This document shows positions 1-32,911 of a stretch of DNA of 39,176 nt, in pieces (position 1 is the first letter of the stretch; each line of letters starts with the position of its first letter). Where the stretch lies: positions 1-39,176 of the forward strand of contig JAHDEE010000037.1 of the NCBI GenBank assembly GCA_020629005.1, in the 5' to 3' direction. This DNA is from Chitinophagales bacterium. GTDB lineage: Bacteria; Bacteroidota; Bacteroidia; Chitinophagales; UBA2359. The position numbers and the translations under genes are program-made. Below the pieces are notes generated by a model that worked only from the letters and a program-made list of their open reading frames with translations, did no database searches and was not told the DNA's origin.

Positions 1-3000
1 GCTGTGTAGCTGACCTTTCACTAGAGAAAGTTGCAAGCACAGATGCAATCGTTCAAGGTGAGACATTCACTTATACATTGACTCTGACTAACGAAGGTCC
101 AGCTGATGCGACAGGAATCGCAGTAGCAGAGAACCTACCTACCGGAGTTGAATACATTTCTGATAGCGCAAGTGCAGGTAACTTCAGTGCCGGTACTGGA
201 TTGTGGACAGTAGACCAATTGGCTGCTGGAAGCACTGCGACACTAGAGATTACAGTATTGGCTGCTGAGGCAGGTGATTATGTGAACACTGCACAGGTTG
301 TAGCGTCTGACCAGGAAGATCCTGATTCAGATCCAAACAACGATGACGGTGATCAGTCTGAGGATGATGAAGATAATGCAGGTACTACGGTTACTGAACC
401 AATCATCGACCTATCATTGACTAAGGATGTAGATGTAGATGCTGGAAACGAGGGTGATACTTTCGTATTCGAGTTGACAGTTACTAACCAAGGTCCTGAT
501 GACGCAACTGGTGTTGTAGCTAACGACGATCTACCAGCTGGATTGAGCTATGTAAGCGACAACCCAAGCACAGGTGATTATACTCCTGCAACAGGAAACT
601 GGATAATTGGTGATTTGGCAGCAGGTGCATCAGCAACGCTGACAATCTCAGTTACAGGTGATACTGCAGGTGAGTTTGAAAATGTTGCACAAATTATTGC
701 AGCAGATCAGACTGATATTGACTCTTCAACCAACAATGATGATGGCGATCAGTCAGAAGATGACGAAGATAACGCTAGCGTAATTATTGGTGAGCTAGGA
801 TCTATCGGAGACTATGTATGGTTCGATTTGAACAATGATGGTATCCAGGATGCTGGTGAAATGGGAATTGAAAATGTTGAAGTTACTTTGACATACCCAG
901 ATGGAACTACTGAAACTACCACTACAGATGCTGACGGCTTGTATCTCTTCGAAGAGCTACCTGCTGGAGACTATCTGGTGACTGTAGGAACAGGTCCTGA
1001 TGGAACTGTCTTGACAACTCCAAGCAACGATAGTGTTGCACTTGGTGAAGGTGAGGATTATGTAGATGCTGACTTCGGCTTCTATGTACCGGAAGAAATC
1101 ATTGATCTTGAAGTAACTAAGGCTGTAAATGCAGTTCTCGGTGTTGAAGGAGATGAATTCATCTGGACAATCACAATCGTTAACCAGGGACCAGATGATG
1201 CAACAGGTGTTGTCGTTAATGATGACCTGCCAGCATTGTTGACTTACCTTGGTGATTCAGCAAGCACAGGTGATTACACAGCTGCCACAGGTGACTGGGT
1301 AGTTGGAGATTTGGCTGTAGGTGCTACTGCTACATTGGAAATTACAACTGCGGCTCCGGTTGCTGGTGATTACACAAATGTTGCTCAGGTAACTGAAGCT
1401 GATCAGGATGATATCGATTCTCAGACCAACAATGATGATGGAGACCAAAGCGAAGATGATGAAGACAATGCGTCTATCACTGTCGATCCAATTGATCCTC
1501 CAATCGCAGATCTGGAATTGACTAAGACAGTTAATGCTGTTCTAGGCGAGGAAGGTGATGAGTTTACGTTTACAATTGAAGTAACCAACCAGGGTCCAAA
1601 TGCTGCAACTGGTGTTGTAGTAAACGATGACCTACCGGCATTGTTGGCTTACCTATCTGATTCTCCAAGCACTGGTGATTACACTGCTGCTACAGGCGAA
1701 TGGGTAATCGGCGATCTAGCTGTTGGTGCTACTGCTACTCTTGAGATTACTGTTAGTGCACCGATTGCAGGTGATTACACCAACATTGCTCAAGTAACTT
1801 CAGCTACTGAAGATGATATTGACTCAGTACCAAACAACGATGATGGCGACCAGTCTGAGGATGACGAAGACAACGCTTCAATCACTGTTACTGAAATTCC
1901 TGATCCAATCTCAGATATTGAGTTGACTAAGGAAGTGAACGCTGTACTAGGATCAGTTGGTGATGAATTCACATTCACCATCACTGTTGTAAACCAGGGA
2001 CCAGATGCCGCTACCGGTGTTATGGTTAATGATGATCTACCAACCGGCTTGACGTATATCTCTGATGCTCCAAGCACAGGTGACTATACTGCTTCAACTG
2101 GCGAATGGATGATCGGCGACCTTGCAGTTGGTGCTACAGCTACATTGGAGATCACAGTATCTGCTGATCAGGCAGGTGATTACACTAACGTAGCGCAGGT
2201 AATTGGCGCTAATGAAGATGATATCGATTCAGTTCCAAACAACGATGATGGCGACCAGTCTGAGGATGACGAAGACAACGCTTCTATCTCTGTAACTGAT
2301 GAAGTAATCGATCTTTCATTGACTAAGACAGTTGACGCGGATATGGGAATGGAAGGCGACTTCTTTACATTCACATTGACAGTGACTAACCAGGGTCCAG
2401 ATACAGCTACTGGTGTAGAAGTATTTGACAACCTTCCTACTGGATTGACTTATGACAGTGCCAACCCAACAACTGGTACTTACAGTCCATTCACTGGTAC
2501 CTGGATGATTGGAACAATGGAAGCAGGTGAAACTGCAACTATGACCATCACAGTTCTTGCTACTGAAGTAGGATCATTCACAAACATTGCTCAGGTTTCT
2601 GCTGCTAATGAGAATGATATCGATTCTACTCCAAACAATGATGACGGTGACCAGTCTGAAGATGATGAAGACAACGCTAGCGTTGAAATCGTTGAAGAAA
2701 TGGTTGACATTTCATTGACTAAGGAAGTTGATGCGAATGCAGGTTCAATAGGTGATGACTTTACATTCACCATCACTGTAACGAATGACGGTCCTGATAC
2801 TGCTACTAACGTAGTTGTAAACGACGACCTTCCAACTGGATTGACTTACATCTCAGATGCTCCAAGCACAGGTGATTACACCGCTGCTAGTGGCGATTGG
2901 GTGATCGGAAGTCTGGCTGCCGGACAAACGGAAATATTGACTATCACAGTTAGTGCTGATGTTGCCGGAAGCTTCGAGAACATTGCTCAGGTTACTTCAC

Positions 3001-6000
3001 ATGAAGAAGCTGACATTGATTCTGATCCAAATAATGATGATGGAGATCAAAGTGAAGATGATGAGGACAATGCTACGGTAACTGTCTCAGATGTCTTGAC
3101 TGATCTCGAGTTGACCAAAACTGTAGATACTGCAGCGGGTCTTGTTGGAGATAGCTTCACCTTCACGGTGACTGTAGCTAACCAGGGGCCAGCTGATGCA
3201 ACAGGTGTACAAGTATTCGATCTGCTTCCTGCAGGTTTGACTTACCTTGGTGATGTGCCTAGCACTGGTACTTACAGCCCGGCTACTGGAACATGGACAA
3301 TTGGTGATCTTGCAGTAGGAGCAACAGCTACTATTGACATTACCATCGTTGCCGATGTGGCTGGTGATTACACGAATATCGCTCAGGTTAGCGCTGCTAA
3401 TGAAGCTGATATCGACTCTACTCCAAACAATGATGACGGAGATCAGAGCGAGGACGACGAAGACAATGCGAGCATTGTAGTCGAAGAACTTCCTGAGCCA
3501 ATCATTGACCTTGAAGTAACTAAAGTTGCTAGCCAGGTACTGATTACTGAAGGTGAATCATTCACGTTCACAGTAACGGTTAACAACCAGGGACCAGATG
3601 ACGCAACTGGTGTTAGCGTATTCGATAACCTGCCTTCAGGTTTGACATACCTATCAGATGCTCCTTCAACGGGTACTTACAGCGAGAATCTTGATACATG
3701 GACAATAGGTGATCTTGCAGCAGGTGCAACAGCTACATTGACTATGGAAGTGGAAGCCAGCGTACCTGGTACTTACACTAACATCGCTCAGGTATTTGCA
3801 GCTGAACAAGATGATATTGATTCTACTCCAAACAACGACGATGGTGATCAGAGTGAGGATGATGAAGACAATGCTACTGTAACTGTAGAGCCTATCAATC
3901 CTCCGTTGATTGATCTTGAAGTTGCTAAGAATGTAAATGCTGCTCTAGTAACTGTTGGTGACGAAGTAATCTTCACGGTTACGGTTACTAACCAGGGGCC
4001 AGACGATGCCACAGGTGTTGAGTTGTTCGATCTACTGCCTACAGGCCTAGGTTATATCAGCTCTGACGCTAGCACAGGTACTTATAGTCCTGCTACTGCT
4101 ATGTGGACAATCGGCGACCTTGCTGCCGGAGCAACTGCTACTATCGAAATGACCGTAAGTGCTGATATTGCTGGTGACTACGTAAACGTAGCTCAGATCA
4201 GTGCTGCTGGTGAAGATGATATCGACTCTACTCCAAACAATGATGACGGAGATCAGAGTGAAGATGATGAAGATAACGCAGGTGTTACTGTTAATCCTGT
4301 TGATGAGCCAGTTTCTGATCTTGAGCTGACTAAAGTTGCAGATGCTGCTTTGGTAACAGTAGGTGACGAGTTTGCTTACACAATCACTGTGACCAACCAA
4401 GGTCCAGATGATGCTACAGGTGTAATGGTACTGGATAACCTACCTACAAATGTAGATTACCAAGGATTCAGCACAAGCACTGGCTCATACATCCCAGCTA
4501 CGGGACAATGGATGATTGGTGACCTTGCTGTGGGATCAACTGCCACTTTGACTATCATCGTTGAGGCTGCAGAAGCTGGTACATTCGACAATATTGCTCA
4601 GATCATTGCAGCAGGTCAGGATGATATCGATTCTACTCCAAATAATGATGATGGTGATCAATCAGAAGATGATGAAGACAATGCTACAGTTACAGCCAAC
4701 GAGCTTGGTGATCCGATCATCGACCTTGAAGTGACTAAAACTGCAAGCACTGCTTTGATTGAAGAAGGTGAGAACTTCACGTTCACAGTTACTGTAACCA
4801 ACCAAGGTCCTGACGATGCAACACAGGTGTCTGTATTTGACAACCTACCTGTTGGATTGACTTACCTGGGAGATATTACTTCCGTTGGAACTTATAGTGA
4901 AGGCGCTGATACCTGGTTCGTTGGTGATCTGGCTGCTGGTGCTACAGCTACTTTGACAATGACTGTTGAAGGAACTGTTGCAGGCTCTTACACGAATGTT
5001 GCACAGGTTGTTGCTGCTGAAGAGGATGATATTGATTCTGTACCGAACAATGACGATGGAGATCAAAGCGAAGATGACGAAGACAATGCGTCTGTAACCG
5101 TTACTGAGCCAAACACTCCTGTTATTGATCTTGAATTGACTAAGACTTCTGATGCAACAATCGTTAATATCGGAGACCAGTTCACTTATACCATCACACT
5201 GACCAATCAAGGTCCAGATGATGCAACAGGTGTAATTGCATTCGATAATCTTCCTGGAAACGTGAGCTACGTATCATCTGCTACTAGCACTGGTACATAC
5301 AGCCAAGGCTCAGGAATGTGGAATGTTGGTTCACTTGCCGCAGGTGGTGTTGCTACTTTGGATATCACAGTTACTGCTGATGCTGAAGGTAGTATTACAA
5401 ACATCGCCCAGGTAACTGCTGCTGGTCAGACTGATATTGATTCAACTCCGAACAACGATGATGGTGATCAGTCAGAAGATGACGAAGACGGTGTTGACGT
5501 AACTGTTAACCCAGAAGATGAGCCAATCATTGATTTGGACTTGACCAAAGTAGTTGATGCTGCTCAGGTAACTGTAGGTGATCTTGTTACTTACACTGTA
5601 ACAGTTTCAAATGCTGGTCCTGATGATGCAACTGGTGTAATGGTAATTGACAATCTTCCTGTACAGGTAGCCTTCCAGGGTTTTGCAGCCAGCACTGGCT
5701 CATACAGCCCAGGTACTGGCATGTGGAACATTGGAACATTGGCCGCTGGTAGCACTGCTACTCTTGAAATTCTTGCAGAAGTAATTACTGCTGGAAGCTT
5801 CGAGAATATTGCTCAGGTTACAGCTGCTGGACAAGATGATATCGATTCTACTCCAAACAATGATGATGGTGATCAGTCAGAGGATGACGAGGACAATGCA
5901 GGTGTAACTGCTGTTGACCCAGCTGAGCCTGTTGTTGATCTATCATTGGAGAAGACATCTACTCCAACTACAGTTAACATAGGTGATCAATTCATCTATA

Positions 6001-9000
6001 CATTGACATTGACTAACCAGGGTCCAGACGAAGCCACTAACATAGAGGTATTCGACAACCTTCCTGGTAATGTATCATACGTATCGGATGCACCTTCAAC
6101 AGGTACTTACAGCTCAGGTACTGGAATATGGAGCGTTTCTGGCCTTGCTGCCGGAGAATCTGCAACTCTGGACATCGTTGTGACTGCTGACGCTGAAGGC
6201 TCTATCTTAAACGTTGCTCAGGTAATTGCTGTAGATCAGCAGGATATCGACTCTACTCCAAACAATGATGATGGTGACCAGTCTGAGGATGACGAAGACA
6301 ATGCTACCACAAACATTAACCCAGAGGATGAGCCAGTTATCGATCTATCGCTTACTAAGACCAGCGATGCTGCAGTTGTGACTGTAGGTGATTCATTCAC
6401 TTATACCATTACTGTAAGCAACCAAGGTCCTGATGACGCTACTGGTGTGGAAGTGTTTGATAACCTTCCTAGCTATGTGACTTACATCTCTGATGCTGCA
6501 AGCACAGGTGTTTACTCTGATGGTTCGGACATCTGGACAGTAGGTTCTCTTGCTGCCGGTGCAACTGCTACATTGGATATAACAGTTGTTGCCAGCGAGC
6601 CAGGTGAGGGAATCGAAAACGTAGCTCAGGTTTCTGCTGCTAACGAAGACGATATCGACTCTATGCCAGGTAATGATGATGGAGATCAAAGTGAAGATGA
6701 TGAAGATGGAGTAGCTGTCACAATACTTGACGAAGCTGATCCTATCATCGATCTTGATTTGACTAAGACGGTTGATGAAGCTGTTGTGACTGTAGGTGAC
6801 TCATTCACATACACAATAACAGTAAGCAACCAGGGTCCTGATACCGCTACAGGTATTGATGTATTGGATAACCTACCAGCTGGAACCAGCTACCTGGGTC
6901 ATTCTGCTTCTACAGGTTCATTCATCTCAAGCACCGGACAGTGGTACGTAGGTACTTTGGATGCGGGTGCAAGCGCTACGCTATCAATCGAAGTATTGGC
7001 TATCGGAGAAGGTGATCTATTGAACGTTGCTCAGATTACTGATGCAAACGAAATGGACATCGACTCTACTCCAAACAACGACGATGGTGACCAGTCTGAA
7101 GATGATGAAGACAATGCAGGTGTAACTGTGAATCCTACTCCGGATCCATTGATTGACCTTTCATTGACTAAGGTTGCCGATGCTGCATCAGTAATGATTG
7201 GTGACGCATTTACTTATACTATCGAAGTAACCAACCAGGGTCCTGATACTGCAACCGGAGTACAGGCATTTGATCTACTACCTTCAGGTGTTAGCTTCCT
7301 AAGCGCTACTGCTTCTACAGGAACTTACAGCCCAGGTACTGGAATCTGGAACGTTGGTTCACTAGATGCTGGTGAAGTTGAAACATTGAACATCACTGTT
7401 GAGGCTCAAGCAGCTGGTAGCTATGATAACGTAGCCCAGATTTCTTCAGCTGATCAGACTGATATCGATTCTACTCCAAACAATGATGACGGTGATCAAA
7501 GCGAAGATGACGAGGATATCGCAACTGTGAACATCCTTGACGAAACTGCTGATATCATTGATCTTGATCTTGTTAAGACTTCAGATGCTGCTGCATTGGA
7601 AGTGGGAGATAGCTTCACCTATACATTGACTCTGACTAACCAGGGTCCTGACGATGCGACTGGTGTTGTTGTCTTTGACAACCTACCATCAGCTGTATCA
7701 TACATAAGCAATGCTGCTAGCCAAGGATTCTACGCTCCAGGAACTGGAGAGTGGACAGTTGGCGCTCTTGCTGCCGGTGCTTCTGCTACATTGGACATCA
7801 CTGTGACCGCCGATACAGACGGAACCATCACAAATGTTGCTCAGGTAATTGAAGCTGATCAGCAGGATATTGATTCTGCACCTGCTAATGACGATGGAGA
7901 TCAAAGTGAGGATGACGAAGATGGAACCGACGTAAATGTTGCACCTATCGGAGAGCCGATCATTGACCTCGATCTTGTTAAGACTTCTGATGCTGCTGTA
8001 GTGAACGTTGGAGATACTTTCAACTACTCAATTACAGTTACAAATCAGGGTCCTGACACTGCTACAGGTGTAGAAGTAGTGGATAACTTGCCTTCTAATG
8101 TGAGTTATGTAACGCATACTGCTAGTACTGGTATCTTCATCTCATCAACTGGCGAGTGGAATATCGGAACAATGAATGCAGGTGCAACAGCTACGATCGT
8201 AATCACTGTAAGCGCAGATTCAGAAGGAGATGTTACTAACGTTGCTCAGATTAGCTCTGCAAACGAAATGGACATTGACTCTAATCCTGCAAACGACGAT
8301 GGAGATCAAAGCGAAGATGATGAAGACTCAGCTGATACTTCTATCCAGGGTCCACAAGAGCCTGTGATCGATCTATCACTAGAGAAGACTAGTTCAGCAA
8401 CAAGTGTAACTGTAGGCGATGAGTTCGCTTACACAATCACTTTGACTAACCAGGGTCCGGATGATGCTACAGGTGTAGTAGTATTCGACTACCTGCCTAC
8501 AGGTGTTAGCTATGTAGGTTCAACTGCTACAGCTGGTACTTACGTGCCAACAAGCGGTGAATGGACCGTCGGTGCACTGGCAGCTGGTTCTACTGCTGAT
8601 CTTGTGATCACTGTAATTGCTGTAGGAGAAGGATCTATCGCCAACACAGCGCAAGTAATTGCTGCTGACCAGGATGATATCGATTCTGAGCCAAACAACG
8701 ACGACGGAGATCAAAGTGAAGATGATGAGGACGGTCAGGATGTAACTTCTACACCTGAAGATGAGCCAATCATCGATCTATCTTTGGAGAAAACTTCTGA
8801 CGCTGCTGCTGTCTCTATCGGAGACCAGTTTACTTATACTTTGACATTGACCAACCAGGGTCCTGATGATGCTACTGGAATCGTAGTCTTTGACTACCTA
8901 CCAGGTACAGTATCTTATATCAGCTCTGCTGGAACAGGCGTTTACAGCCCGGCTTCAGGTGAGTGGTCAGTATCTGCTCTTGCTGCAGGTGATGTAGTAA

Positions 9001-12000
9001 CAATGGATATCGTTGTTGAAGCAATCGGAGAAGGATCAACAGTTAACGTAGCGCAAGTAATTGCTGCTGATCAGACTGACATTGATTCTACACCAGCTAA
9101 TGACGACGGTGATCAAAGTGAAGACGACGAAGACTCTGCTAATACAAACATCTCCGGCCCAGCTGATGAGATGATTGATTTGGAGTTGACTAAGACTTCT
9201 GACGCAACAAGCGTAACTATCGGAGATCAATTCACTTACACGCTGACTTTGACCAACAATGGTCCAGATGACGCGACTGGTGTAAGTGTTGTTGATAATC
9301 TTCCAACCAATGTTAGCTTCGTAAGCTTCTCATCAAGCAATGGATTCTATGTTGCCAATACTGGCATGTGGAATGTACCAAGCCTTGCTGCAGGTGCTAC
9401 TGCTACCATGGACATTACGGTTGAAGCAATCGCTGAAGGTTCTCTTGCAAACATCGCACAGGTGGTTGCAGCGGATCAGATGGATACAGATTCTACTCCT
9501 GCTAATGACGACGGTGATCAAAGTGAGGATGACGAAGACAATTCAACTGTCAACGTTAATCCAATCGATGAGCCAGTTGTTGATCTATCGCTAGAGAAGA
9601 CTTCTGATGCTACCTTGTTGACTACAGGTGATACATTCTCTTACACATTGACATTGACCAACGCTGGTCCTGACGAAGCCACTGGAATCGTTGTTAACGA
9701 TTACCTGCCATTCGGATTGACCTATGTAGGTAGCGCAGCTTCAACAGGAAGCTACAACCCTGCTTCAGGCGATTGGACTGTATCTGCTCTTGCTGCAGGT
9801 GCTCAGGCAACACTGGAAATCACAGTAATTGCTAGCAGCCCTGGATCAATTGAGAATATCGCTCAGGTAACTGATGCTGATCAGGATGATATTGATTCTA
9901 ATCCAAACAATGACGATGGAGATCAGAGTGAGGATGACGAAGACAATGCTTCTGTGAATGTAGAAGACGAACCTGCTGACATAATTGACCTGGCTCTGAC
10001 CAAGACATCTGATGCAGCTGTCGTAACTGTAGGAGATCAGTTCACTTATACTTTGACATTGACCAACCAGGGTCCTGATGATGCAACTGGTATCGTTGTC
10101 TTTGACAACCTACCTGCTGCTGTAAGCTATGTAAGCTCTGCTTCAACTAACGGCTTCTACCTGCCTGCAAGTGGTGAGTGGACTGTACCAGCCCTGGCTG
10201 CTGGAGGTTCTGCAACACTTGACATCACGGTAACTGCCGAGACTGCTGCAAGTATCGAGAACATCGCTCAGGTAATCGCTGCTGATCAAACTGATATCGA
10301 CTCTACTCCAGCTAATGATGATGGAGATCAGAGCGAAGATGATGAAGATGCCGTAGGAACCGAAATCGGAGATGTTCCGCCAGTAGTTGCTGACCTTGAA
10401 CTCGAAAAGAGCTCAAGCGCTCAGTCAATTCCTCTGGGAACTCAATTCGATTATACATTGACATTGACCAACAATGGTCCAGATGATGCAAGCGGAATCG
10501 TTGTTCAAGATCAGCTTCCAGCTGGTGTTACATTCAACAGCTTCGCTGCTAACAATGGATTCTACAGTGTTGGCTCTGGAGAATGGACAGTTCCTAATCT
10601 TGCTGCTGGTGCAACTGCAGAGCTTGTTCTGACAGTTACAGCAACTGATCCTGGTTCTGTTACTAACGTGGCTCAGGTAATTGCTTCAAATGAAGAAGAT
10701 CCGGATTCAGATCCAGGTAATGACGACGGCGATCAAAGTGAAGATGATGAAGACAACTCTACAGTTACTGTAGAAGAGCCTGCTGCTCCAGTTGCTGACC
10801 TTTCTGTAACTAAGATTGCAGATCGTTCTTCGATGCTGGTAGGCGACTTCGTTAGCTACACAATTACTGTTACTAACTCAGGTCCGGATCAAGCTACAAA
10901 CGTAGTATTGACAGACTTGATGCCTTCTCAATTGACTTACTCAAGCTCAAATGCTTCTACTGGTTCATTCCAGCCTAGCACTGCAGTTTGGACCGTAGGT
11001 ACAGTTGAAGTTGGTGCAACAGAGACGCTGGAAATAACTTCAGTTCTAGAATCTGCAGGTCAGTTCACCAATGTTGTACAAGTTACTTCAGTTGATCAGG
11101 ATGATCCTGACTCTGATCCTAACAATGACGATGGTGACCAATCTGAAGATGATGAAGCAAATGCAACAACTGTAGGTATGAACCCACAAGGTTCTATCGG
11201 AGACTTCGTTTGGAATGATCTAGATGGTGACGGTGTTCAGGATCCAGGTGAGCCTGGTAAGGATGGTGTTACGGTAAATCTATATGATGCTGACGGTGCC
11301 TTCATTACTTCTGCAAATACATTTGGTGGTGGACAGTACTTGTTCTCCAACCTGGATGCTGGTGTCTACATCGTAGAAATCGGTGTGGTTGACGGAAACG
11401 TAATGACTACGCAGGATACTTACACAGTGAATCTCGCTCCTGGCGAAGACTTCCCGAGTGCTGACTTCGGTTGCTACGAGCCTGCTTGTATCGGAGACTA
11501 TGTATGGTTGGATGAAAATGGCAACGGTACACTAGACAACGGCGAGCCTGGATTTGAGCTAATGTTCGGTAACACTCCACAAGGAATCTCTGTATTCCTA
11601 TTGGGTGAAAACGGTCAATTGATCACTCAGACTACAACTGATAATGGTAGCTACGAATTCTGTGGATTGGCTCCTGGTACTTACACAGTACAGGTTGACG
11701 TTCCAAGTGGATTCTCACTATCAACTGATGGTTCTTACACAGTAACTGTTGAATCAGGAGACAACGTCACGGATGCTGACTTCGGCTTGACTCAGGCTAA
11801 CAGCTTGATCGCTAATGATGACTCAGCAGTTACGGATTGTGAATCTCCAGCTGCAATCACTGTAATAGCGAATGATACTGATCCTGATGGCGATAACTTC
11901 TCTATCACTTCTGTATCTAATCCGCTTAACGGTACTGCTGCTGCCACGGCAGCGGGTGTAATTACTTACACTCCTCTTGCAGGGTTCAGCGGAACTGATC

Positions 12001-15000
12001 AGTTTGATTACACGATCACTGATGATCTAGGTAACGAGGCTACGGCTACTGTTACTGTGACAGTCGGTCAATGTGATGAGAACGATCCTCCAGTTGCTGC
12101 TGATGGAAGCATCTCAACAGCTTGTGATACTCCAGATACTATCGATCTACTTGCAGGTGCAACTGATCCAGAAGGTGATACAATCACGCTTCAGTCAGTT
12201 AACCAACCAAGCAATGGTACAGTGGTAGACAACGGTGACGGAACGGTAACCTACACTCCTAATGCAGGATTTGATGGAGCTGACTTCTTCACTTATGTAA
12301 TCACTGACGGTGAGCTTACAGCTATCGGATCTGTAGTAGTGAATGTTGAAGATTGTGTGGAGCCAAATGAGGCTCCTGTTGCAAACGACGACACAAACAC
12401 TACTCCATGTGAAACCCCTGCTATCATCAACCTAACAGGTAATGATACAGATGCTAACGGTGATGCATTGACAATCACTGTGCTTGGTACGCCAGCGAAT
12501 GGAGCAGCTACTGGTAACGGAGACGGAACAGTAACATACACACCAAGTGCAGGATTCAGTGGAACTGATTCATTCACTTACACCATCTCTGATGGAAATG
12601 GTGGAACAGACTCAGCTACCGTAACTGTAACAGTTGAGACTTGTGTTGATCCTAACCAGGATCCTACAGCGAACAACGATATGAACACTACGCCTTGTGA
12701 GACTGCTGTTATCATCGATCTAATCGGAAACGATACAGATCCTGATGGTGATGCTTTGACTGTTTCTTCAGTTGGTAACCCAGCTAATGGTACAGTATCT
12801 GACAATGGCAATGGCACAGTAACATACACTCCTAATACAGGATTCGATGGAAACGACGTATTCACATACACTATTTCTGATGGCAACGGTGGAAGCGATT
12901 CCGCAACAGCTACAGTAATGGTAGAGTCATGTGTTGATCCTTGTACTGTAAACGGAGGTTCGATCTCTACTACAGATCCAACTACAATTTGTGCAGACGA
13001 TAATGTAGAAGATCTGATTGACGTGATTTTGGTTGGCGCTACTGGTCCAAACAATGCCTGGATCATTACCGATGACCTGGGTAATATTCTTGATCTACCT
13101 CAGGCACCACCATTCAACCTGGAAGGTGCAGGAGCAGGAGTTTGCCTAATCTGGCACATCTCATACGAAGACGGACTAACTGGCGCGAATGTTGGAGCTA
13201 ACGCTTCAGGACTTGCAGGTTGCTTCGATCTTTCTGAGCCAATCGCAGTTACAAGATTGACAGGAGACGATTGTCCTACGACAAACGAAGCACCTGTTGC
13301 TAACGATGATTCGAATACAACTCCGTGTGAGACTCCAGCCATCATCAACCTAATCGGTAATGATACCGATGCTGACGGTGATGCCTTGACAATCACATTG
13401 ATTGGAACACCTGCAAACGGAACGGCTACCAACAACGGCGACGGTACGGTAACCTACACTCCGAATGCAGCATTTGATGGAACTGACAGCTTCACCTACA
13501 CTATCTCTGATGGTAACGGTGGAACTGACAGTGCTACGGTAACTGTAACTGTTGAAGACTGTATCGCTCCTAATCAGAATCCTACAGCTAACAACGACCA
13601 GAATACAACTCCGTGTGAGACAGCAGCCATTATCAATCTAATTGCTAATGACTCTGATCCTGATGGAGATGCATTGACTATTACAGCTATCGGATCACCT
13701 GCCAACGGTACTGTTGTTGACAACGGTGACGGTACGGTACTTTACACGCCAAATGCAGAATTCAGCGGCATTGACCTATTCACTTACTCTATCTCTGATG
13801 GAAACGGTGGAACAGCTAATGCAACTGTTTCTGTAAACGTTGAGCAGTGTGCGGAGCCTAACCAGAATCCTGTTGCCAACAATGATCAAAGTTCAACTCC
13901 TTGTGATGAACCAGTAACCGTTGATGTACTAATCAATGACACTGATCCTGATGGCGATCCATTGACGATTATCTCAATCTTCTCGGTAGCCAACGGAACA
14001 GCAGTGATTACTGCGGATAATATGATCACTTTCACTCCTGATGCAGGATTCTCTGGTAACGGATTCGTTAACTACGAGATTTCTGATGGAAACGGTGGAA
14101 CGGCTCTTGGTGTACTTACAATTGCTGTAAGCGAATGTAATGACAACAATAACCCAATCGCTGTTGATGATCTGGTTGAAACTCCATGTGATACTGAAAT
14201 ATTGATCGATGTTACATCGAACGATACGGATGCTGACGGTGACTTCCTGATCGTAACAGGTCTGGGTGCTCCGGCTAATGGTTCTGTAGACAGACTAGGT
14301 AACACTATCTCCTACACTCCGGATCCTGGTTTCAGTGGAACGGACGTATTTACTTACCTAATTACTGATGGTGCTGGTGGTACGGCTACCGGTATCGTAA
14401 CAGTAGTTGTGGGTGACTGCGACATGAACACTGCGCCTACAGCAGTAGACGACAGTGGATCAACTAACTGTGATACGCCAGTGGCATTCTCAGTGATTGC
14501 CAACGATTTCGACCCTGATGGAAACGCATTGACCATTACCAGTACTTCTAATCCGGCTAACGGTTCAGTTACAGTACTAGGTGGTGTAATCAACTACGTT
14601 CCTGATTCAGGATTCTCTGGTACAGACTTGTTCACTTACACTATCTCTGATGGTGAAGGTGGAACTTCTTCAGCAACGGTAACCATCACGGTTGATCAGT
14701 GCGAAGATTGTGAGAACCCGGATATGTTCGGTTGTACTATGCCGATCACTCCGATTATCTTCTGTCCTGAGTTCTGTGCTTTGGGTGACCAGTATGAGAT
14801 TGTATCTCTTACTACTACATTCAACTGCAGCTTGACTATTCTTCCTGACAACTGCGTGCGATACGTACCGCTTCCAGGATTTGTAGGCATGGATACAATT
14901 GTTGCTACAGCTTGTGATGACAACGGAAACTGTGATGTAATCAATCTCAACGTAACAACTGCTGACGACTGTGCTGGAAACGGCAACAACTCACCGGCAG

Positions 15001-15869
15001 CCACCGATGATATTGCAATCACTGATCAGAATACCGCTGTTACCATTGTTGTACTTAACAATGACAACGACCCGGATGGTGATACACTTACCATCTGCGA
15101 CATTCAGCAGCCAGCTACTGGTACGGTTACTCAGGTTGGAAACTTCCTGACGTTCACTCCAAATGATGGTTTCGCTGGTGTAGCATTCTTTAGTTACACA
15201 GTTTGTGATGGAAATGGTGGAATGGATACTGCAACGGTTACAGTAACTGTAGAAGGTGATTCTACAGATTGCCTAAACCCTGCTATTTGTACTCAGCCTA
15301 TCGTCCCAACTGATATCTGTGTGAACTTCTGTAATGTTCCTGACGCTGAAATCACTGACATCAACACCTTGTTTGATTGTAGCCTTGGCGATCCTACAGA
15401 TAATTGCTTCACCTACACTGCTCTACCAGCATTCGCTGGAATTGAAGAGCTCACAGTGACAGGTTGCAATGCTAACGGAGATTGTGAAACAGTTGTCATC
15501 AGCGTTTGGGTTGGAGATTGTAACGAAAGTCCATTTAACAGTGAGGCTCTCGAATTCAACGATCCTATAGAGAAGAACGGCTCTATGGTTGAAGTCTGTG
15601 AATTGGCATTCGTGAAAGATCCATCTGCTTCTGCCGGCCACGTATTCATGGCTATCAATGCAGGATCTTGCTACGAGGATGAAATGTTGGAATTGAATAT
15701 CTACGATGCTGCAGGTCACTTGGTATACAATGCTAAGGGACTTACTGAAGCAACTCGTTGGGATGGAAACGCTAGCAACGGCATGAACGTGCAGCCAGGC
15801 GTTTACTTCTACCAGCTTCTTGTTGGAAACGGTGAGCAGTACAGTGGTTCAATAATGCTTGCGAGATAG
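1..15869 (+). CDS. Giant DUF11-repeat surface adhesin, 5' end outside the window
   Basis: The frame is open from the left edge (first full codon at 3) to TAG at 15867-15869, so at least 5288 residues are visible and the true start and signal peptide are missing. Domain order by nucleotide: two DUF11 repeats (about 12-795), an SdrD B-like module (798-1097, GSIGDYVWFD...DGIQDAGE), 25 more DUF11 repeats (about 1098-11187), two more B-like modules (11191-11484 and 11485-11796), then Ig/cadherin-like repeats of about 95 residues with NDTDPDGD and GTVTYTP motifs (11800-15525), interrupted at 12942-13274. The last ~110 residues (LNIYDAAG..., RWDGN..., PGVYFYQLL) resemble a gliding-motility/type IX sorting domain but lack its usual FSPNxDGxND start. 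The DUF11 part is extremely acidic and cysteine-free. Likely a secreted, cell-surface adhesin exported by the type IX system; ligand unknown. Family-level identification is secure, function is inferred. Confidence 0.93.
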   Translation, partial: CVADLSLEKVASTDAIVQGETFTYTLTLTNEGPADATGIAVAENLPTGVEYISDSASAGNFSAGTGLWTVDQLAAGSTATLEITVLAAEAGDYVNTAQVVASDQEDPDSDPNNDDGDQSEDDEDNAGTTVTEPIIDLSLTKDVDVDAGNEGDTFVFELTVTNQGPDDATGVVANDDLPAGLSYVSDNPSTGDYTPATGNWIIGDLAAGASATLTISVTGDTAGEFENVAQIIAADQTDIDSSTNNDDGDQSEDDEDNASVIIGELGSIGDYVWFDLNNDGIQDAGEMGIENVEVTLTYPDGTTETTTTDADGLYLFEELPAGDYLVTVGTGPDGTVLTTPSNDSVALGEGEDYVDADFGFYVPEEIIDLEVTKAVNAVLGVEGDEFIWTITIVNQGPDDATGVVVNDDLPALLTYLGDSASTGDYTAATGDWVVGDLAVGATATLEITTAAPVAGDYTNVAQVTEADQDDIDSQTNNDDGDQSEDDEDNASITVDPIDPPIADLELTKTVNAVLGEEGDEFTFTIEVTNQGPNAATGVVVNDDLPALLAYLSDSPSTGDYTAATGEWVIGDLAVGATATLEITVSAPIAGDYTNIAQVTSATEDDIDSVPNNDDGDQSEDDEDNASITVTEIPDPISDIELTKEVNAVLGSVGDEFTFTITVVNQGPDAATGVMVNDDLPTGLTYISDAPSTGDYTASTGEWMIGDLAVGATATLEITVSADQAGDYTNVAQVIGANEDDIDSVPNNDDGDQSEDDEDNASISVTDEVIDLSLTKTVDADMGMEGDFFTFTLTVTNQGPDTATGVEVFDNLPTGLTYDSANPTTGTYSPFTGTWMIGTMEAGETATMTITVLATEVGSFTNIAQVSAANENDIDSTPNNDDGDQSEDDEDNASVEIVEEMVDISLTKEVDANAGSIGDDFTFTITVTNDGPDTATNVVVNDDLPTGLTYISDAPSTGDYTAASGDWVIGSLAAGQTEILTITVSADVAGSFENIAQVTSHEEADIDSDPNNDDGDQSEDDEDNATVTVSDVLTDLELTKTVDTAAGLVGDSFTFTVTVANQGPADATGVQVFDLLPAGLTYLGDVPSTGTYSPATGTWTIGDLAVGATATIDITIVADVAGDYTNIAQVSAANEADIDSTPNNDDGDQSEDDEDNASIVVEELPEPIIDLEVTKVASQVLITEGESFTFTVTVNNQGPDDATGVSVFDNLPSGLTYLSDAPSTGTYSENLDTWTIGDLAAGATATLTMEVEASVPGTYTNIAQVFAAEQDDIDSTPNNDDGDQSEDDEDNATVTVEPINPPLIDLEVAKNVNAALVTVGDEVIFTVTVTNQGPDDATGVELFDLLPTGLGYISSDASTGTYSPATAMWTIGDLAAGATATIEMTVSADIAGDYVNVAQISAAGEDDIDSTPNNDDGDQSEDDEDNAGVTVNPVDEPVSDLELTKVADAALVTVGDEFAYTITVTNQGPDDATGVMVLDNLPTNVDYQGFSTSTGSYIPATGQWMIGDLAVGSTATLTIIVEAAEAGTFDNIAQIIAAGQDDIDSTPNNDDGDQSEDDEDNATVTANELGDPIIDLEVTKTASTALIEEGENFTFTVTVTNQGPDDATQVSVFDNLPVGLTYLGDITSVGTYSEGADTWFVGDLAAGATATLTMTVEGTVAGSYTNVAQVVAAEEDDIDSVPNNDDGDQSEDDEDNASVTVTEPNTPVIDLELTKTSDATIVNIGDQFTYTITLTNQGPDDATGVIAFDNLPGNVSYVSSATSTGTYSQGSGMWNVGSLAAGGVATLDITVTADAEGSITNIAQVTAAGQTDIDSTPNNDDGDQSEDDEDGVDVTVNPEDEPIIDLDLTKVVDAAQVTVGDLVTYTVTVSNAGPDDATGVMVIDNLPVQVAFQGFAASTGSYSPGTGMWNIGTLAAGSTATLEILAEVITAGSFENIAQVTAAGQDDIDSTPNNDDGDQSEDDEDNAGVTAVDPAEPVVDLSLEKTSTPTTVNIGDQFIYTLTLTNQGPDEATNIEVFDNLPGNVSYVSDAPSTGTYSSGTGIWSVSGLAAGESATLDIVVTADAEGSILNVAQVIAVDQQDIDSTPNNDDGDQSEDDEDNATTNINPEDEPVIDLSLTKTSDAAVVTVGDSFTYTITVSNQGPDDATGVEVFDNLPSYVTYISDAASTGVYSDGSDIWTVGSLAAGATATLDITVVASEPGEGIENVAQVSAANEDDIDSMPGNDDGDQSEDDEDGVAVTILDEADPIIDLDLTKTVDEAVVTVGDSFTYTITVSNQGPDTATGIDVLDNLPAGTSYLGHSASTGSFISSTGQWYVGTLDAGASATLSIEVLAIGEGDLLNVAQITDANEMDIDSTPNNDDGDQSEDDEDNAGVTVNPTPDPLIDLSLTKVADAASVMIGDAFTYTIEVTNQGPDTATGVQAFDLLPSGVSFLSATASTGTYSPGTGIWNVGSLDAGEVETLNITVEAQAAGSYDNVAQISSADQTDIDSTPNNDDGDQSEDDEDIATVNILDETADIIDLDLVKTSDAAALEVGDSFTYTLTLTNQGPDDATGVVVFDNLPSAVSYISNAASQGFYAPGTGEWTVGALAAGASATLDITVTADTDGTITNVAQVIEADQQDIDSAPANDDGDQSEDDEDGTDVNVAPIGEPIIDLDLVKTSDAAVVNVGDTFNYSITVTNQGPDTATGVEVVDNLPSNVSYVTHTASTGIFISSTGEWNIGTMNAGATATIVITVSADSEGDVTNVAQISSANEMDIDSNPANDDGDQSEDDEDSADTSIQGPQEPVIDLSLEKTSSATSVTVGDEFAYTITLTNQGPDDATGVVVFDYLPTGVSYVGSTATAGTYVPTSGEWTVGALAAGSTADLVITVIAVGEGSIANTAQVIAADQDDIDSEPNNDDGDQSEDDEDGQDVTSTPEDEPIIDLSLEKTSDAAAVSIGDQFTYTLTLTNQGPDDATGIVVFDYLPGTVSYISSAGTGVYSPASGEWSVSALAAGDVVTMDIVVEAIGEGSTVNVAQVIAADQTDIDSTPANDDGDQSEDDEDSANTNISGPADEMIDLELTKTSDATSVTIGDQFTYTLTLTNNGPDDATGVSVVDNLPTNVSFVSFSSSNGFYVANTGMWNVPSLAAGATATMDITVEAIAEGSLANIAQVVAADQMDTDSTPANDDGDQSEDDEDNSTVNVNPIDEPVVDLSLEKTSDATLLTTGDTFSYTLTLTNAGPDEATGIVVNDYLPFGLTYVGSAASTGSYNPASGDWTVSALAAGAQATLEITVIASSPGSIENIAQVTDADQDDIDSNPNNDDGDQSEDDEDNASVNVEDEPADIIDLALTKTSDAAVVTVGDQFTYTLTLTNQGPDDATGIVVFDNLPAAVSYVSSASTNGFYLPASGEWTVPALAAGGSATLDITVTAETAASIENIAQVIAADQTDIDSTPANDDGDQSEDDEDAVGTEIGDVPPVVADLELEKSSSAQSIPLGTQFDYTLTLTNNGPDDASGIVVQDQLPAGVTFNSFAANNGFYSVGSGEWTVPNLAAGATAELVLTVTATDPGSVTNVAQVIASNEEDPDSDPGNDDGDQSEDDEDNSTVTVEEPAAPVADLSVTKIADRSSMLVGDFVSYTITVTNSGPDQATNVVLTDLMPSQLTYSSSNASTGSFQPSTAVWTVGTVEVGATETLEITSVLESAGQFTNVVQVTSVDQDDPDSDPNNDDGDQSEDDEANATTVGMNPQGSIGDFVWNDLDGDGVQDPGEPGKDGVTVNLYDADGAFITSANTFGGGQYLFSNLDAGVYIVEIGVVDGNVMTTQDTYTVNLAPGEDFPSADFGCYEPACIGDYVWLDENGNGTLDNGEPGFELMFGNTPQGISVFLLGENGQLITQTTTDNGSYEFCGLAPGTYTVQVDVPSGFSLSTDGSYTVTVESGDNVTDADFGLTQANSLIANDDSAVTDCESPAAITVIANDTDPDGDNFSITSVSNPLNGTAAATAAGVITYTPLAGFSGTDQFDYTITDDLGNEATATVTVTVGQCDENDPPVAADGSISTACDTPDTIDLLAGATDPEGDTITLQSVNQPSNGTVVDNGDGTVTYTPNAGFDGADFFTYVITDGELTAIGSVVVNVEDCVEPNEAPVANDDTNTTPCETPAIINLTGNDTDANGDALTITVLGTPANGAATGNGDGTVTYTPSAGFSGTDSFTYTISDGNGGTDSATVTVTVETCVDPNQDPTANNDMNTTPCETAVIIDLIGNDTDPDGDALTVSSVGNPANGTVSDNGNGTVTYTPNTGFDGNDVFTYTISDGNGGSDSATATVMVESCVDPCTVNGGSISTTDPTTICADDNVEDLIDVILVGATGPNNAWIITDDLGNILDLPQAPPFNLEGAGAGVCLIWHISYEDGLTGANVGANASGLAGCFDLSEPIAVTRLTGDDCPTTNEAPVANDDSNTTPCETPAIINLIGNDTDADGDALTITLIGTPANGTATNNGDGTVTYTPNAAFDGTDSFTYTISDGNGGTDSATVTVTVEDCIAPNQNPTANNDQNTTPCETAAIINLIANDSDPDGDALTITAIGSPANGTVVDNGDGTVLYTPNAEFSGIDLFTYSISDGNGGTANATVSVNVEQCAEPNQNPVANNDQSSTPCDEPVTVDVLINDTDPDGDPLTIISIFSVANGTAVITADNMITFTPDAGFSGNGFVNYEISDGNGGTALGVLTIAVSECNDNNNPIAVDDLVETPCDTEILIDVTSNDTDADGDFLIVTGLGAPANGSVDRLGNTISYTPDPGFSGTDVFTYLITDGAGGTATGIVTVVVGDCDMNTAPTAVDDSGSTNCDTPVAFSVIANDFDPDGNALTITSTSNPANGSVTVLGGVINYVPDSGFSGTDLFTYTISDGEGGTSSATVTITVDQCEDCENPDMFGCTMPITPIIFCPEFCALGDQYEIVSLTTTFNCSLTILPDNCVRYVPLPGFVGMDTIVATACDDNGNCDVINLNVTTADDCAGNGNNSPAATDDIAITDQNTAVTIVVLNNDNDPDGDTLTICDIQQPATGTVTQVGNFLTFTPNDGFAGVAFFSYTVCDGNGGMDTATVTVTVEGDSTDCLNPAICTQPIVPTDICVNFCNVPDAEITDINTLFDCSLGDPTDNCFTYTALPAFAGIEELTVTGCNANGDCETVVISVWVGDCNESPFNSEALEFNDPIEKNGSMVEVCELAFVKDPSASAGHVFMAINAGSCYEDEMLELNIYDAAGHLVYNAKGLTEATRWDGNASNGMNVQPGVYFYQLLVGNGEQYSGSIMLAR
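12..11187 (+). repeat. 27-copy DUF11 coding repeat array (about 403-bp period)
   Basis: In-frame repeats begin with a DLxLTK or DLSLEK strand, carry N-GPD-ATG and a DNLP-type motif, then WxxGxLAAG, and end in an almost invariant acidic block DIDSTPNNDDGDQSEDDED. The block was counted 27 times. The first repeat is cut only slightly by the window edge. A B-like module at 798-1097 separates repeats 2 and 3. Repeat starts such as 1507, 1912, 3502, 5122 and 6340 are about 400 nt apart. This matches the DUF11 / TIGR01451 conserved repeat family of bacterial surface proteins, which forms rod-like stalks of beta-sandwich domains. Confidence 0.93.
11800..15525 (+). repeat. Ig/cadherin-like (Big_9-type) coding repeat array with paired cysteines
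   Basis: Ten repeats of about 90-100 residues share the pattern ANDD...ND(T)DxDGD...NGT...GTVTYTPxxGFxGxDxFxYxIxDGxGG. Nine carry one cysteine about 12-15 residues in (TPCETP-type) and one at the very end (VEDC, VEQC, VSEC). A different module (12942-13274) splits the array after the fourth repeat, and two cysteine-rich modules (about 14706-14975 and 15270-15525) flank the last one. The repeats resemble the bacterial Ig/cadherin-like tandem domains of large adhesins; the acidic loops suggest calcium binding, which is inference. Confidence 0.85.
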
Positions 15870-16412: not shown

Positions 16413-19400
16413 ATGAGCATTAAGCGTTCCGTCTGCCAAGACAAGCTAATGGACTCTGTCCCTCTTCTGCTAGTCAGTATCATGTCGTTTTTGACATTCG
16501 TACTGCCAGCCAGGGCTCAGGACCCGCCAGGAGGATGTGGATATTATTATAGTCCGGAACATCATTACACAACGAGTATCCAACAGTCTTCAGATGATGC
16601 TAAAGAAGGAGATAATTCCTGGATGGATCTGGCCTCCGAATACCAGGATACCGGCCAGGCTCCCTGGGCAAATCTAAAGGCGGGATACAGATTTAGTGAA
16701 ACTAATTTGCCCGCCAACGCTATCATCACTAAGGCAGAACTCATACTGACTTTCATTTGGGACTACGGTACCTCTGTTAGTTTTTCCATCCACGGAGAGA
16801 ATCTAACGCAAAACTCTCTAACCTTTTCTACAGCAAACGCCGATATATCAAATCGTAATCAAACAACAGCCAATGTGAATTGGTCGCTTCCCGCAAATCC
16901 AGGATACCAATCCAGCTTACCGCACACTGTAGAGCTCACTGAGATTGTAAATGAGTTTGTAGTCGAAGGATGGAACCCCGGAGACCCCATGACCTTTATC
17001 ATTTCTCCGCTTTCTGGTTTTCGCTCTTTTGCAGCCCACGAATTTGAGGGACAGGGAAAGTACTCCCCTCAACTGAGACTTCACTATCGTTTGCCTGAGC
17101 CCGCTTGCTCTGGCTTGTCAGGACTGGCCTTCGAAGACTTCAATGATAATGGCCAATTCGATTCCGCCGGAGAGCAGTTGTGTGAGACCGGTCTGCCTGA
17201 GGTAGGGGTCAATATCTATAATGATGGTGGATTGGTTTATACAACTATCACCGACAATTTTGGAAACTGGTCTTTTCCTGCAGCCAACGCTGGCTCAACT
17301 TATCGCGTGGAATATGACTTGCCACAGGAATATCAGCCTGCCTCCGCGTCTGCACTCGGTTCAAGTTCCGAAACCTCCTTTGCCATCGCACCAGAATGCT
17401 GCATTGATTTCGGTCTGCACAGACCTGCCGATTTTGCCTGCGAGGTGCCACAGTTAGTGACCGTATGTAATGTACAGTGTGGAGCAGCAAACGAAAACGA
17501 GCCAGTCCTGGTTTCGATTCCGGAAACAGAATTGGGTAATTCAACTACGGATATCAACGATTATCTGATTGCTAATCATCCGATCATGGTTCCTGTCAGG
17601 GAATTGGGATCAATTTGGGGCCTTGCTTACAACAAGTGTGAAGATGTGATCTACACAGGTGCAAAGTTTAGCAATTTGACAGATATGGGTTCGGGTGGTA
17701 CCGGGGCGATTTACTGCATTGACAACTCCGCAAATGACGGAACCAATGAAACAGTAACGGAGGTATCCAATGTGCTTGTACAAATACCAAATGCCGGAAA
17801 CGATCCAGCGCAGGGACTCGAATGTGGTGCCAGCAATGATCCGGCTTTTATGAAGTACGCTGACAAAGTAGGTCTAGGTGATGTAGATCTAAACGAAACC
17901 TGTGATACGCTCTATGCTGTGAATCTATATAACCGCAGTCTTGTTGCCATTCCCGTCAATGGTTGTACGGCGACCGGAGGAATTCAAACTTATGGATTGC
18001 CAATTCCAATCGGCACTTTTGCCTGCTCCAACGATACGATTCAACCATTTGGATTGGCCTGTCACAAAGGCAAAGTATATGTAGGAGCTGTATGTACTGC
18101 TGAACGCACACAGGATCGCAACAACCTTTGGGCCTATGTCTATGAGTTTTCTCATGGTAGCGGATTCGACAGTACACCTGTTCTCGATTTTCCCTTGAAC
18201 TATGTGCGAAGTGGTAAGAATTTCATCAATAGTGCGGGTATCTCTCCCGATCTTGACTGGCATCCCTGGAGAACCGAGTGGAACGCAGCAAACACCATAG
18301 CCGATAGCCTTTACAAGGAGAACTATAATCAAGTTTCTTATCCGCAGGCAGTACTATCCGATATAGAGTTTGATAAAGGCGACATGACCCTCGGCTTTAT
18401 GGATCGCTTTGCCAATCAGTTTGCATATGATGAAGATCCAAGTGGTCATGCCGGACAAAACGCAGCTGATGGTACCAACGACGTAGGTGCTACTCCTGCC
18501 GGTGAAATTCTAAGGGCAGGAGCATTGCCCTCAGGAGGCTGGGTACTCGAGGATAATGCACTTGTCAATGGGGTGCAAACAGGATCACAACGAACTGAAG
18601 GAGTGAATACTTCGGAGGGACCAGGGGGCGGCGAGTACTATCATGGAGACCGCTTTGGCTCTACCCACGATGAATCTACTTTGGGAGGACTAGCTCAGAT
18701 TCCTGGGCATGTGGATGTTGCAGTAACCGCATTTGATCCCACTGGAATCTATTTTGAACATAGCAATGATCCCAGATATGCCAGTGGGGGAATTATCACA
18801 TTGAATAACCGCACGGGTTTGCAGCAGGCAGCTTGGGAGGGTTATTACAGTACTCCGAGCGCCTTCGGAAAAGGAAATGGTTTTGGCGATGTTGAGTATA
18901 TCTGTGCCTGCGCGGAAATCGAAATCGGTAATAGAATTTGGTTTGATATCGATGGCGATGGCATTCAGGATCCCGGTGAGCCTCCTATTGCTGGTGTCCT
19001 GGTAAATCTTTATTCGGCTCCTGGACAGTTGCTCGCGCAAGTAAGCACTGATTCGGAAGGGCGATATTTCTTTAGCAGTGACAATGTACCGGCAGGGTTG
19101 AGTACGGGACAGAATTACTTTCTTGCAGTTGATGCCAGCAATTTTAGTGTCTATGGTGAACTGGAATTGGCGGGGAATAACTATGGACGGTTGACTGTTT
19201 CGAATAGCAGCAATATGGGAAATGCAGATACCAATGACTCTGATGCGATTGATTCCGCACTGACCCCTTCTGGAATTACGCTGATTGACCTCGGCGAGAT
19301 GCCCTATATCGCGATCAGCACCGGCGAGAGCGGTTTCAACGATTTTACCTATGATTTTGGCTTTAGGCCAAATGCAGAATGTTCATTGGAAACAGCAGGA

Positions 19401-29355: not shown

Positions 29356-30318
29356 ATGAATAGCAAATTAATCCAGAAATTAACAGCCAGCCTTAGTATC
29401 ATGCTAGTTTTGATGCTTGGTTTTTCGAGTCAATCGGCTCAGGCTCAACAGGATACAAGATATAGTCAGTATATGTTTAATGGTCTGGTACTTAATCCAG
29501 CCTATGGAGGTTCGGTTGAAGGCGCCAGTTTAAGCGCATTCTATAGAAACCAATGGGTCGGCATAGACGGTGCACCAGTGACCTACTCTTTTTCCGGTCA
29601 CAGTCGACTTGGTGACCGGGTAGGTGTAGGTGGATACGTACAGCGAGATGAAATTGGAGTTACCAATACCACCTCGGCATTCCTGACCTATGCCTATCGC
29701 ATTCCTTTTGCCAATGCCAATGTTGCCATTGGACTGAACGGAGGAGTTGATTTCTATTCTGCAAATCTGACTGATGTACAGGGACTCCCAGGAACGACAG
29801 GACCAGTAGATCCCGTATTTAATGAGGACGAGTCTCGATTAATGCCCAATTTTGGAGTTGGTATCTATTACCACTCTGAGTACTTCTATTTGGGTGCTTC
29901 GACCCCGAGGCTCCTGGAAAACAAATTCGATACACCGACAAAAAAGGCCAGACAGTATCGTCACTACCTGGGTACGGTCGGTATCGTCTTACCAATCCTT
30001 CCACAGGTAAAAGTGAATCCTTCGATGCTCTTCAAGACGGTTCCTGCGGAAGCTCCATATCAGTTTGATTTCAACCTCAATCTGATTTTCATGGACATGG
30101 TATGGATTGGCAGCTCTTATCGTACAGGAAAGGAGTTTGGACCAGAGTCTGTAGACTTCCTGGCTGGCTTCATGCTTAGAAACGGCTTGAGAATGGGCTA
30201 TGCTTATGACCTTACGCTGACGGAATTGGACCAGTTCACAAGTGGCTCTCACGAGATCACTATTGGATGGGATCTGCGTAAGAATAACGATATGATCATT
30301 ACACCGAGATACTTCTAG
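29356..30318 (+). CDS. PorP/SprF family type IX secretion outer-membrane protein
   Basis: 320 residues with ATG at 29356. Signal peptide residues 1-30 (LVLMLGFSSQSAQA). The mature start QQDTRYSQYMFNGLVLNPAYGGS is the hallmark of the PorP/SprF family, followed by FYRNQWVGIDGAP, LGASTPRLLE and a C-terminal GYAYDLTLTEL...GSHEITIGWDL. Such proteins are small outer-membrane beta-barrels; in Flavobacterium SprF is needed for export of the adhesin SprB, and PorP-like proteins act as partners of type B cargo. Located 214 nt after the type B adhesin gene, it is the best candidate partner for that protein. Ends at an intrinsic terminator. Confidence 0.95.
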   Translation: MNSKLIQKLTASLSIMLVLMLGFSSQSAQAQQDTRYSQYMFNGLVLNPAYGGSVEGASLSAFYRNQWVGIDGAPVTYSFSGHSRLGDRVGVGGYVQRDEIGVTNTTSAFLTYAYRIPFANANVAIGLNGGVDFYSANLTDVQGLPGTTGPVDPVFNEDESRLMPNFGVGIYYHSEYFYLGASTPRLLENKFDTPTKKARQYRHYLGTVGIVLPILPQVKVNPSMLFKTVPAEAPYQFDFNLNLIFMDMVWIGSSYRTGKEFGPESVDFLAGFMLRNGLRMGYAYDLTLTELDQFTSGSHEITIGWDLRKNNDMIITPRYF

Positions 30319-30422: not shown

Positions 30423-30458
30423 AAGTTAGCAGGTTATTAGGAAGATAGAAGCTAACTT
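30423..30458 (+). promoter_or_regulatory. Leader inverted repeat before the second PorP/SprF gene
   Basis: AAGTTAGC (30423-30430) and GCTAACTT (30451-30458) form a perfect 8-bp inverted repeat with a 20-nt loop, ending 7 nt before the ATG at 30466. It could be an operator or an mRNA hairpin limiting ribosome access. No T-run follows, so it is not a terminator. Function is inferred from position only. Confidence 0.4.
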
Positions 30459-30465
30459 GTACCTT

Positions 30466-32909: not shown

Positions 32910-32911
32910 TC

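Follow-up and report, generated by a model that had tools for sequence, protein, structure and literature searches.

The window analysed here is the whole contig C180 (JAHDEE010000037.1), i.e., 39,176 bases from the 6.9-Mb genome (456 contigs) of a Chitinophagales bacterium. It opens inside the gene of a giant surface protein with 27 tandem DUF11 repeats, each of which holds exactly one lysine. We consider it very likely that this array is a stalk of isopeptide-locked CLIPPER domains (the new name of DUF11) under a strong bias against basic residues. That is, the array would form the stalk of a giant fibrillar Bacteroidota surface protein, presumably an adhesin, which would be exported by the type IX secretion system. 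The lysine of strand A would condense with an asparagine of the penultimate strand, aided by an acid 34 residues after the lysine (K+34), and the resulting isopeptide bond would lock the beta-sandwich so that it withstands heat, protease and pulling. Another, separate pressure would exclude lysine, arginine and histidine from the repeated stalk domains and favour aspartate and glutamate. The isopeptide lysine would survive since the bond needs it, its charge being lost on bond formation. We infer the bond in the window repeats from the family, and likewise infer what causes the bias. Domain and bond are already known; the pattern of the retained lysine, the way charge differs between lineages and the conserved acidic loop are less so.

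Lone lysine, partner residues and predicted fold

The features of the giant gene are listed below. Repeat 14 served as the example in a preliminary description of the same DNA, and the roles of its three residues are predicted from the available part of PMC12617251.

3..15869, forward strand: giant surface protein, C-terminal 5288 residues visible (open frame, no left boundary at the contig edge)
12..11159, forward strand: 27 DUF11/CLIPPER repeats of 120-122 residues each plus short spacers, one Lys per repeat
792..1094, forward strand: SdrD_B-like domain inserted within the array, without Lys or Arg (matches SdrD chains)
5532..5894, forward strand: repeat 14, 121 residues, starting at the Asp of strand A and ending with the acidic loop
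5547..5549, forward strand: repeat 14, predicted isopeptide Lys (residue 6)
5649..5651, forward strand: repeat 14, predicted catalytic Asp (residue 40, K+34)
5805..5807, forward strand: repeat 14, predicted isopeptide Asn (residue 92, K+86)
5838..5894, forward strand: repeat 14, acidic loop, residues 103-121, DIDSTPNNDDGDQSEDDED
11163..15866, forward strand: C-terminal part with SdrD_B domains, then Big_9/cadherin-like (tandem-95) repeats
15684..15860, forward strand: CHU_C type IX secretion sorting domain at the C terminus (PF13585, 36.2 bits, cut-off 27)

The Pfam family DUF11 (PF01345) matches C180 27 times, always above its cut-off. The lone lysine is residue 6 in 27/27 repeats, and no repeat has a second one. 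Over residues 1-3721 (the 27 repeats and one SdrD_B domain) we count 503 Asp, 223 Glu, 27 Lys, 1 Arg, 3 His and 1 Cys; the array carries a net charge of -698, the whole visible frame one of -922. The preliminary description had reported 27 repeats with one lysine each in the opening strand, a net charge in the hundreds and 23 Asp/Glu against one Lys in repeat 14, all of which our counts reproduce (the last when read in frame from 5529). Its array boundaries (12-11187) reach slightly too far, as the last repeat ends at 11159. The array had also been called cysteine-free. This holds for the repeats but not for the protein, i.e., the single Cys counted above sits at the contig edge as residue 1, preceding the first repeat, and the remaining protein has 48.

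The lysine is accompanied in all 27 repeats by an acidic residue at K+34 (Asp in 26, Glu in one) and, at K+85 to K+87, by an Asn. DUF11 was renamed CLIPPER as a domain in which Lys and Asn form an intramolecular isopeptide bond (PMC12617251; PDB 9IFR); in 9IFR, the bond joins Lys715 and Asn806 with Asp748 as the presumed catalyst. According to the available part of this source, CLIPPER without the Lys unfolds at ~45 rather than ~80 degrees and shows lowered protease resistance, while the spacings tabulated for related families range from about +35 to +40 and from +80 to +100. The spacings of the window triad thus lie within the family range. A profile of the 27 repeats finds 9ifr_A as the sole match among PDB sequences at E <= 0.1 (E 5.8e-5), and the alignment pairs Lys6, Asp40 and Asn92 with Lys, Asp and Asn of 9IFR. 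A second profile, built from 98 repeat pairs, again has 9ifr as its sole PDB match at E <= 1, with an alignment that stopped before the Asn. The DUF11 identity and the regularity noted earlier are retained, but the reading of the lone lysine changes: with its partners in every repeat of the window, it is best explained as the isopeptide lysine.

To obtain the predicted fold, two-repeat AlphaFold2 models were built from a shallow alignment (25 sequences) and a deep alignment (98 sequences), with predicted local distance difference test (pLDDT) values of 86.6 and 95.1, respectively. The predicted model is a CnaA-like beta-sandwich, and 9IFR comes first in both superposition runs (shallow model: Z 13.9, root-mean-square deviation (rmsd) 1.8 Å, 111 residues; deep model: Z 13.3, rmsd 1.9, 112 residues). 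The strands of the deep model place Lys6 in 2-8, Asp40 in 33-41 and Asn92 in 88-98.

Repeats in other genomes and points against the bond

One scan of genome contigs yielded 407 pattern matches, of which 401 were confirmed and 80 were kept as 76 loci. We analysed 74 of these loci (the two others lie in the G007 contig, which was handled separately) together with C180, C3, C48, C104 and C43 of the window's genome and contig C78 of genome G007. The 993 aligned repeat rows, after 51 partial ones were dropped, gave 910 unique repeats, and 908 of them carry the triad. Exactly one Lys is found in 27/27 repeats of the window, 34/39 of C3, 31/32 of C48 (stretch examined) and 12/14 of C104 and C43 combined, in 14/58 of G007 and in 438/740 elsewhere. 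Since this share varies while the triad stays, the one-lysine rule is local and the triad is not.

Two groups of Flavobacteriaceae (loci within L071-L111, also L061-L070) differ strongly in this respect. Flavobacterium (20 loci, 302 repeats) shows 1.71 extra Lys and 12.6 acids per repeat with the triad in 301/302, while the other Flavobacteriaceae (24 loci, 193 repeats) show 0.15 extra Lys and 21.6 acids with the triad in 193/193. The per-locus acid ranges are disjoint, i.e., 11.2-13.6 for Flavobacterium and 17.2-25.5 for the others. The p-values computed for this contrast count related genomes as independent and carry little weight. Flavobacterium lives mostly in fresh water and soil, the other genera are mostly marine. 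Habitat may be the cause of the contrast in acids and lysines; the two groups are separate lineages, such that habitat and ancestry are confounded. As a side observation, contigs filed under a Theionarchaea metagenome-assembled genome (L056, L060) carry these repeats as well, by transfer or misbinning.

Several points weigh against the isopeptide reading. Concerning the fold, Foldseek put integrins first, with 9IFR absent among the 50 matches listed, and integrin chains tie with 9IFR on Z in the superpositions, but at an rmsd of at least 7.6 Å over about 220 residues; we read these matches as a shared immunoglobulin (Ig) fold. Concerning the residues, the published spacing of 9IFR (+33/+91, available part of PMC12617251) differs from that of the window (+34/about +86), and in our alignment the Asp and Asn of 9IFR lie 34 and 88 after the first Lys of the chain. 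As published and aligned spacings disagree, a one-to-one pairing with the named Asp and Asn of 9IFR appears uncertain. Furthermore, the repeats were recruited by likeness to those of the window, which makes the triad share an upper view; one of the 51 dropped partial rows has Glu at the Lys column, and 1/45 DUF11 matches in the C3 protein is without the Lys. Arg amounts to 0.48 per repeat in both Flavobacteriaceae groups, which argues against one rule covering all basic residues.

The bond in the window repeats is a prediction from family likeness, and some DUF11 domains are reported without a bond in the available part of PMC12617251. Both points would suit a lysine that is kept for folding or electrostatics and forms no bond. 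We regard this as very improbable, given that all three partners are kept together throughout the window and almost throughout the wider set.

Acidic loop and shortage of basic residues

The tail DGDQSEDDED of the repeats had been described as invariant. This is nearly so: NDDGDQSEDDE occurs in 27/27 repeats, the full DGDQSEDDED in 26/27, as the final repeat ends in A. The 11 tail codons come in 26 distinct DNA versions among the 27 copies, and on average the repeats are identical at 60% of their bases (ungapped comparison), which rules out chance or recent copying. Because so many DNA spellings encode it, the tail is kept by selection on the protein. Acids make up 274/513 tail residues (53%) but 372/2754 residues elsewhere (13.5%), i.e., they are clustered along the sequence.

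With regard to its position, the preliminary description had taken the tail for a linker-like segment between domains. We reject this, as the tail lies between two strands of the same domain in both models; in the deep model, these are strand 88-98, which bears the Asn, and strand 120-128, the last one. The loop is predicted to be ordered with the deep alignment (pLDDT block means of 91 and 93 for the first repeat and 85 for the second) but not with the shallow one, where pLDDT is partly below 50 and residues 109-116 are of low confidence. The predicted template modelling score (pTM) of 0.68 for the deep two-repeat model gives no support for a rigid joint.

We also compared the exchange of Asp and Glu among columns. 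The minor share per loop column is 0.00 in the window and at most 0.10 in the wider sets, compared to 0.12-0.26 for column 17; the body columns 31 and 32 exchange the two acids little as well. Repeats from other genomes that are without the scan pattern keep D103 in 518/519, S106 in 509/527 and D119 in 370/370 cases. In other genomes, the DDGDQS middle is often swapped for shorter neutral runs (e.g., GVTT), and the constant core of the loop is therefore DxDSxPxN and EDD. EF-hand loops start with DxDxDG and have Glu at position 12. Aligning the tail with Gly113 as position 6 puts mostly Pro108 at position 1 and Asp119 at position 12, and we thus reject an EF-hand loop.

Two roles of the loop have to be weighed. 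It may bind a divalent cation such as Ca2+ close to the joint between repeats and stiffen the rod, as in MpAFP of Marinomonas primoryensis, whose inter-repeat Ca2+ is held by acidic residues (available part of PMC4083281). This proposal, which is compatible with the isopeptide bond, appears to us a serious one, with a chance somewhat short of even. The enrichment of acids, their low exchange relative to column 17, the near invariance of D103, S106 and D119 and the order in the deep model all point towards it. On the other hand, the loop sequence is not an EF-hand, the pTM lends no support to a rigid joint, part of the loop falls below pLDDT 50 in the shallow model, DDGDQS is often replaced, and the behaviour of columns 31 and 32 renders the exchange test only suggestive. 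Calcium binding by the acidic loop is possible. Alternatively, the tail could be a flexible polyanionic spacer for which bulk charge alone matters. Its high charge and the low confidence of residues 109-116 in the shallow model would fit, but the loop is intradomain and confident in the deep model, and exact residues are kept rather than just charge, such that we consider a spacer quite unlikely. With its predicted order, the loop is more likely to have a fixed structure, perhaps a cation site, than to be a floppy spacer.

The shortage of basic residues extends beyond the repeats. The visible frame minus its last 100 residues holds 1 Lys and 4 Arg in addition to the 27 predicted isopeptide lysines. 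As an internal control, neither Lys nor Arg occurs in the 1140 residues of 12 SdrD_B segments, which were picked by pattern from the window gene and from that of C3. The bias is not genome-wide: six other proteins of the window have 7.5-13.0% Lys+Arg, and both residues are kept in the first ~1000 residues of the C3 protein and in the 1432-aa protein encoded downstream. (The names RsmE and MurF-Alr in our composition table are presumed.) The charge extreme, which had been singled out as the outstanding property of the array, is not unique, since a neighbouring protein has a core without Lys or Arg and region II of MpAFP shows ~18% Asp+Glu with neither basic residue (available part of PMC4083281). 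This neighbour, a 2469-aa tandem-95 protein (21732-29141), contains 2392 consecutive residues without Lys or Arg, a lack more extreme than that of the DUF11 array.

The shortage might mainly reflect escape from trypsin-like proteases or nitrogen saving in a giant protein, to which we assign a low probability. Stalks almost without Lys and Arg would agree with both, and side-chain nitrogen per residue is 0.109 in the array compared to 0.38-0.40 in three cytosolic-type proteins. However, His is scarce too (3 in 3721), and selection by a trypsin-like enzyme would not account for that. Asn (5.75%) and Gln (3.44%) are at normal levels, i.e., nitrogen-bearing residues are not avoided as such, and this weakens nitrogen saving as the sole cause.

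Extent of the gene, neighbours and related stalks

Genes downstream of the giant gene include the following.

16413..20711, forward strand: 1432-aa secreted-like protein with SdrD_B domains, Lys and Arg kept
21732..29141, forward strand: 2469-aa tandem-95 repeat protein with type IX sorting domain, residues 21-2412 without Lys/Arg
29356..30318, forward strand: PorP/SprF family protein (Pfam scan)
30457..31392, forward strand: second PorP/SprF family protein (Pfam scan)

The giant protein has the marks of a type IX cargo, i.e., CHU_C above its cut-off at the C terminus and a full-length SprA encoded in the genome (positions 6-2318 of 2319 matched); the two PorP/SprF genes lie further downstream. 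A Pfam scan of the last 1568 residues for an RTX-type C-terminal export signal gave CHU_C and no RTX repeat family. Elsewhere in the window (32193-34510), an XhoI-like restriction enzyme gene adjoins an Eco57I-type N6 methylase gene.

The visible frame is probably the continuation of a gene whose first ~8,300 codons are held by contig C3. The C3 frame comprises 8322 codons, starts near a hydrophobic stretch that we take to be signal-peptide-like, and breaks off within a DUF11 repeat where the contig ends. The genome has 67 exact tail matches, 32 of them on C3, 27 on C180, 5 on C48 and 3 on C216. No overlap joins the C3 end and the window start, which share only the similarity usual among the repeats (at most about 89% across some 50 bases). 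The joined gene would exceed about 13,600 codons and hold some 72 DUF11 matches (45 + 27). Another giant DUF11 array, interrupted by contig ends, is found on C48 and C104 and has the tail DFDDED (17 copies in the stretch of C48 examined, 2 on C104, none on C3 and C180). A block of ~2.4 kb occurs twice on C3 (66442-68850 and 69271-71679, 94.5% identity), i.e., a recent multi-repeat duplication, and arrays therefore grow by blocks. Contig C78 of G007 has a single 14,254-codon frame with 58 unique repeats and the triad in 58/58, but different gene neighbours and 2.5 Lys per repeat compared to one in the window. We thus reject synteny; the G007 gene shows only that such single frames exist.

Among known systems, the Acinetobacter silvestris adhesin B9T28_05395 (CLIPPER, 9IFR) shares the profile match, the predicted fold, the Lys/Asp/Asn residues and the tandem stalk domains within a long surface protein. 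Its triad spacings are slightly different. In our profile alignment, the stretch of its chain that is displayed contains several Lys, and no acidic loop is aligned. As far as the available part of PMC12617251 goes, a Cys pair sits in the last strand while the window repeats are without Cys, and the anchor is OmpA-like where the window protein ends in a type IX sorting domain. Region II of MpAFP is likewise a giant tandem Ig-like stalk with about 18% Asp+Glu and acids near the joints, and the window repeats match its freedom from Lys and Arg but for the predicted isopeptide Lys. In the text consulted (PMC4083281), MpAFP has a different domain and export route, relies on Ca2+, and is described without an isopeptide triad; its repeats are identical, whereas those of the window share about 60% of bases. 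The Mobiluncus mulieris giant adhesin (7651 residues, 51 Ig-like domains, one covalent cross-link per domain) is a comparable giant stalk. According to the available part of PMC10619420, it is Gram-positive and has several cross-link types compared to the one predicted type of the window.

Searches of the literature, with subscription papers mostly outside their reach, returned no work joining isopeptide with Saprospir, no match for four of six combinations of lone lysine, isopeptide, acidic residues, adhesin and Bacteroid, and two papers with off-topic titles for DUF11 with type IX secretion. DUF11 together with isopeptide led to PMC12617251, DUF11 together with calcium returned 61 papers, among them matches to longer names starting with DUF11, and giant adhesins of Bacteroidota returned four.

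A more far-reaching picture combines these elements. The stalk might be doubly locked, by an isopeptide bond in each domain and a previously undescribed, non-EF-hand cation site (DxDSxPxN-DDGDQS-EDDED) at each joint, in a single gene that spans C3 and C180 and has no fewer than about 13,600 codons and ~70 domains, with a charge tuned by habitat and a fixed triad. We put this forward tentatively and hold it to be rather unlikely as a whole.

If the reading as an isopeptide-locked stalk under a bias against basic residues is true, positive residues left in a cleared stalk mark residues used in chemistry, and isopeptide domains in surface proteins of Bacteroidota could be recognised by a simple feature of their sequence. 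The conserved acidic loop, confirmed at 401 places in one contig scan, is amenable to ligand measurement on a small fragment, and the comparison of Flavobacterium with other Flavobacteriaceae provides a natural experiment on what sets the charge of these stalks.

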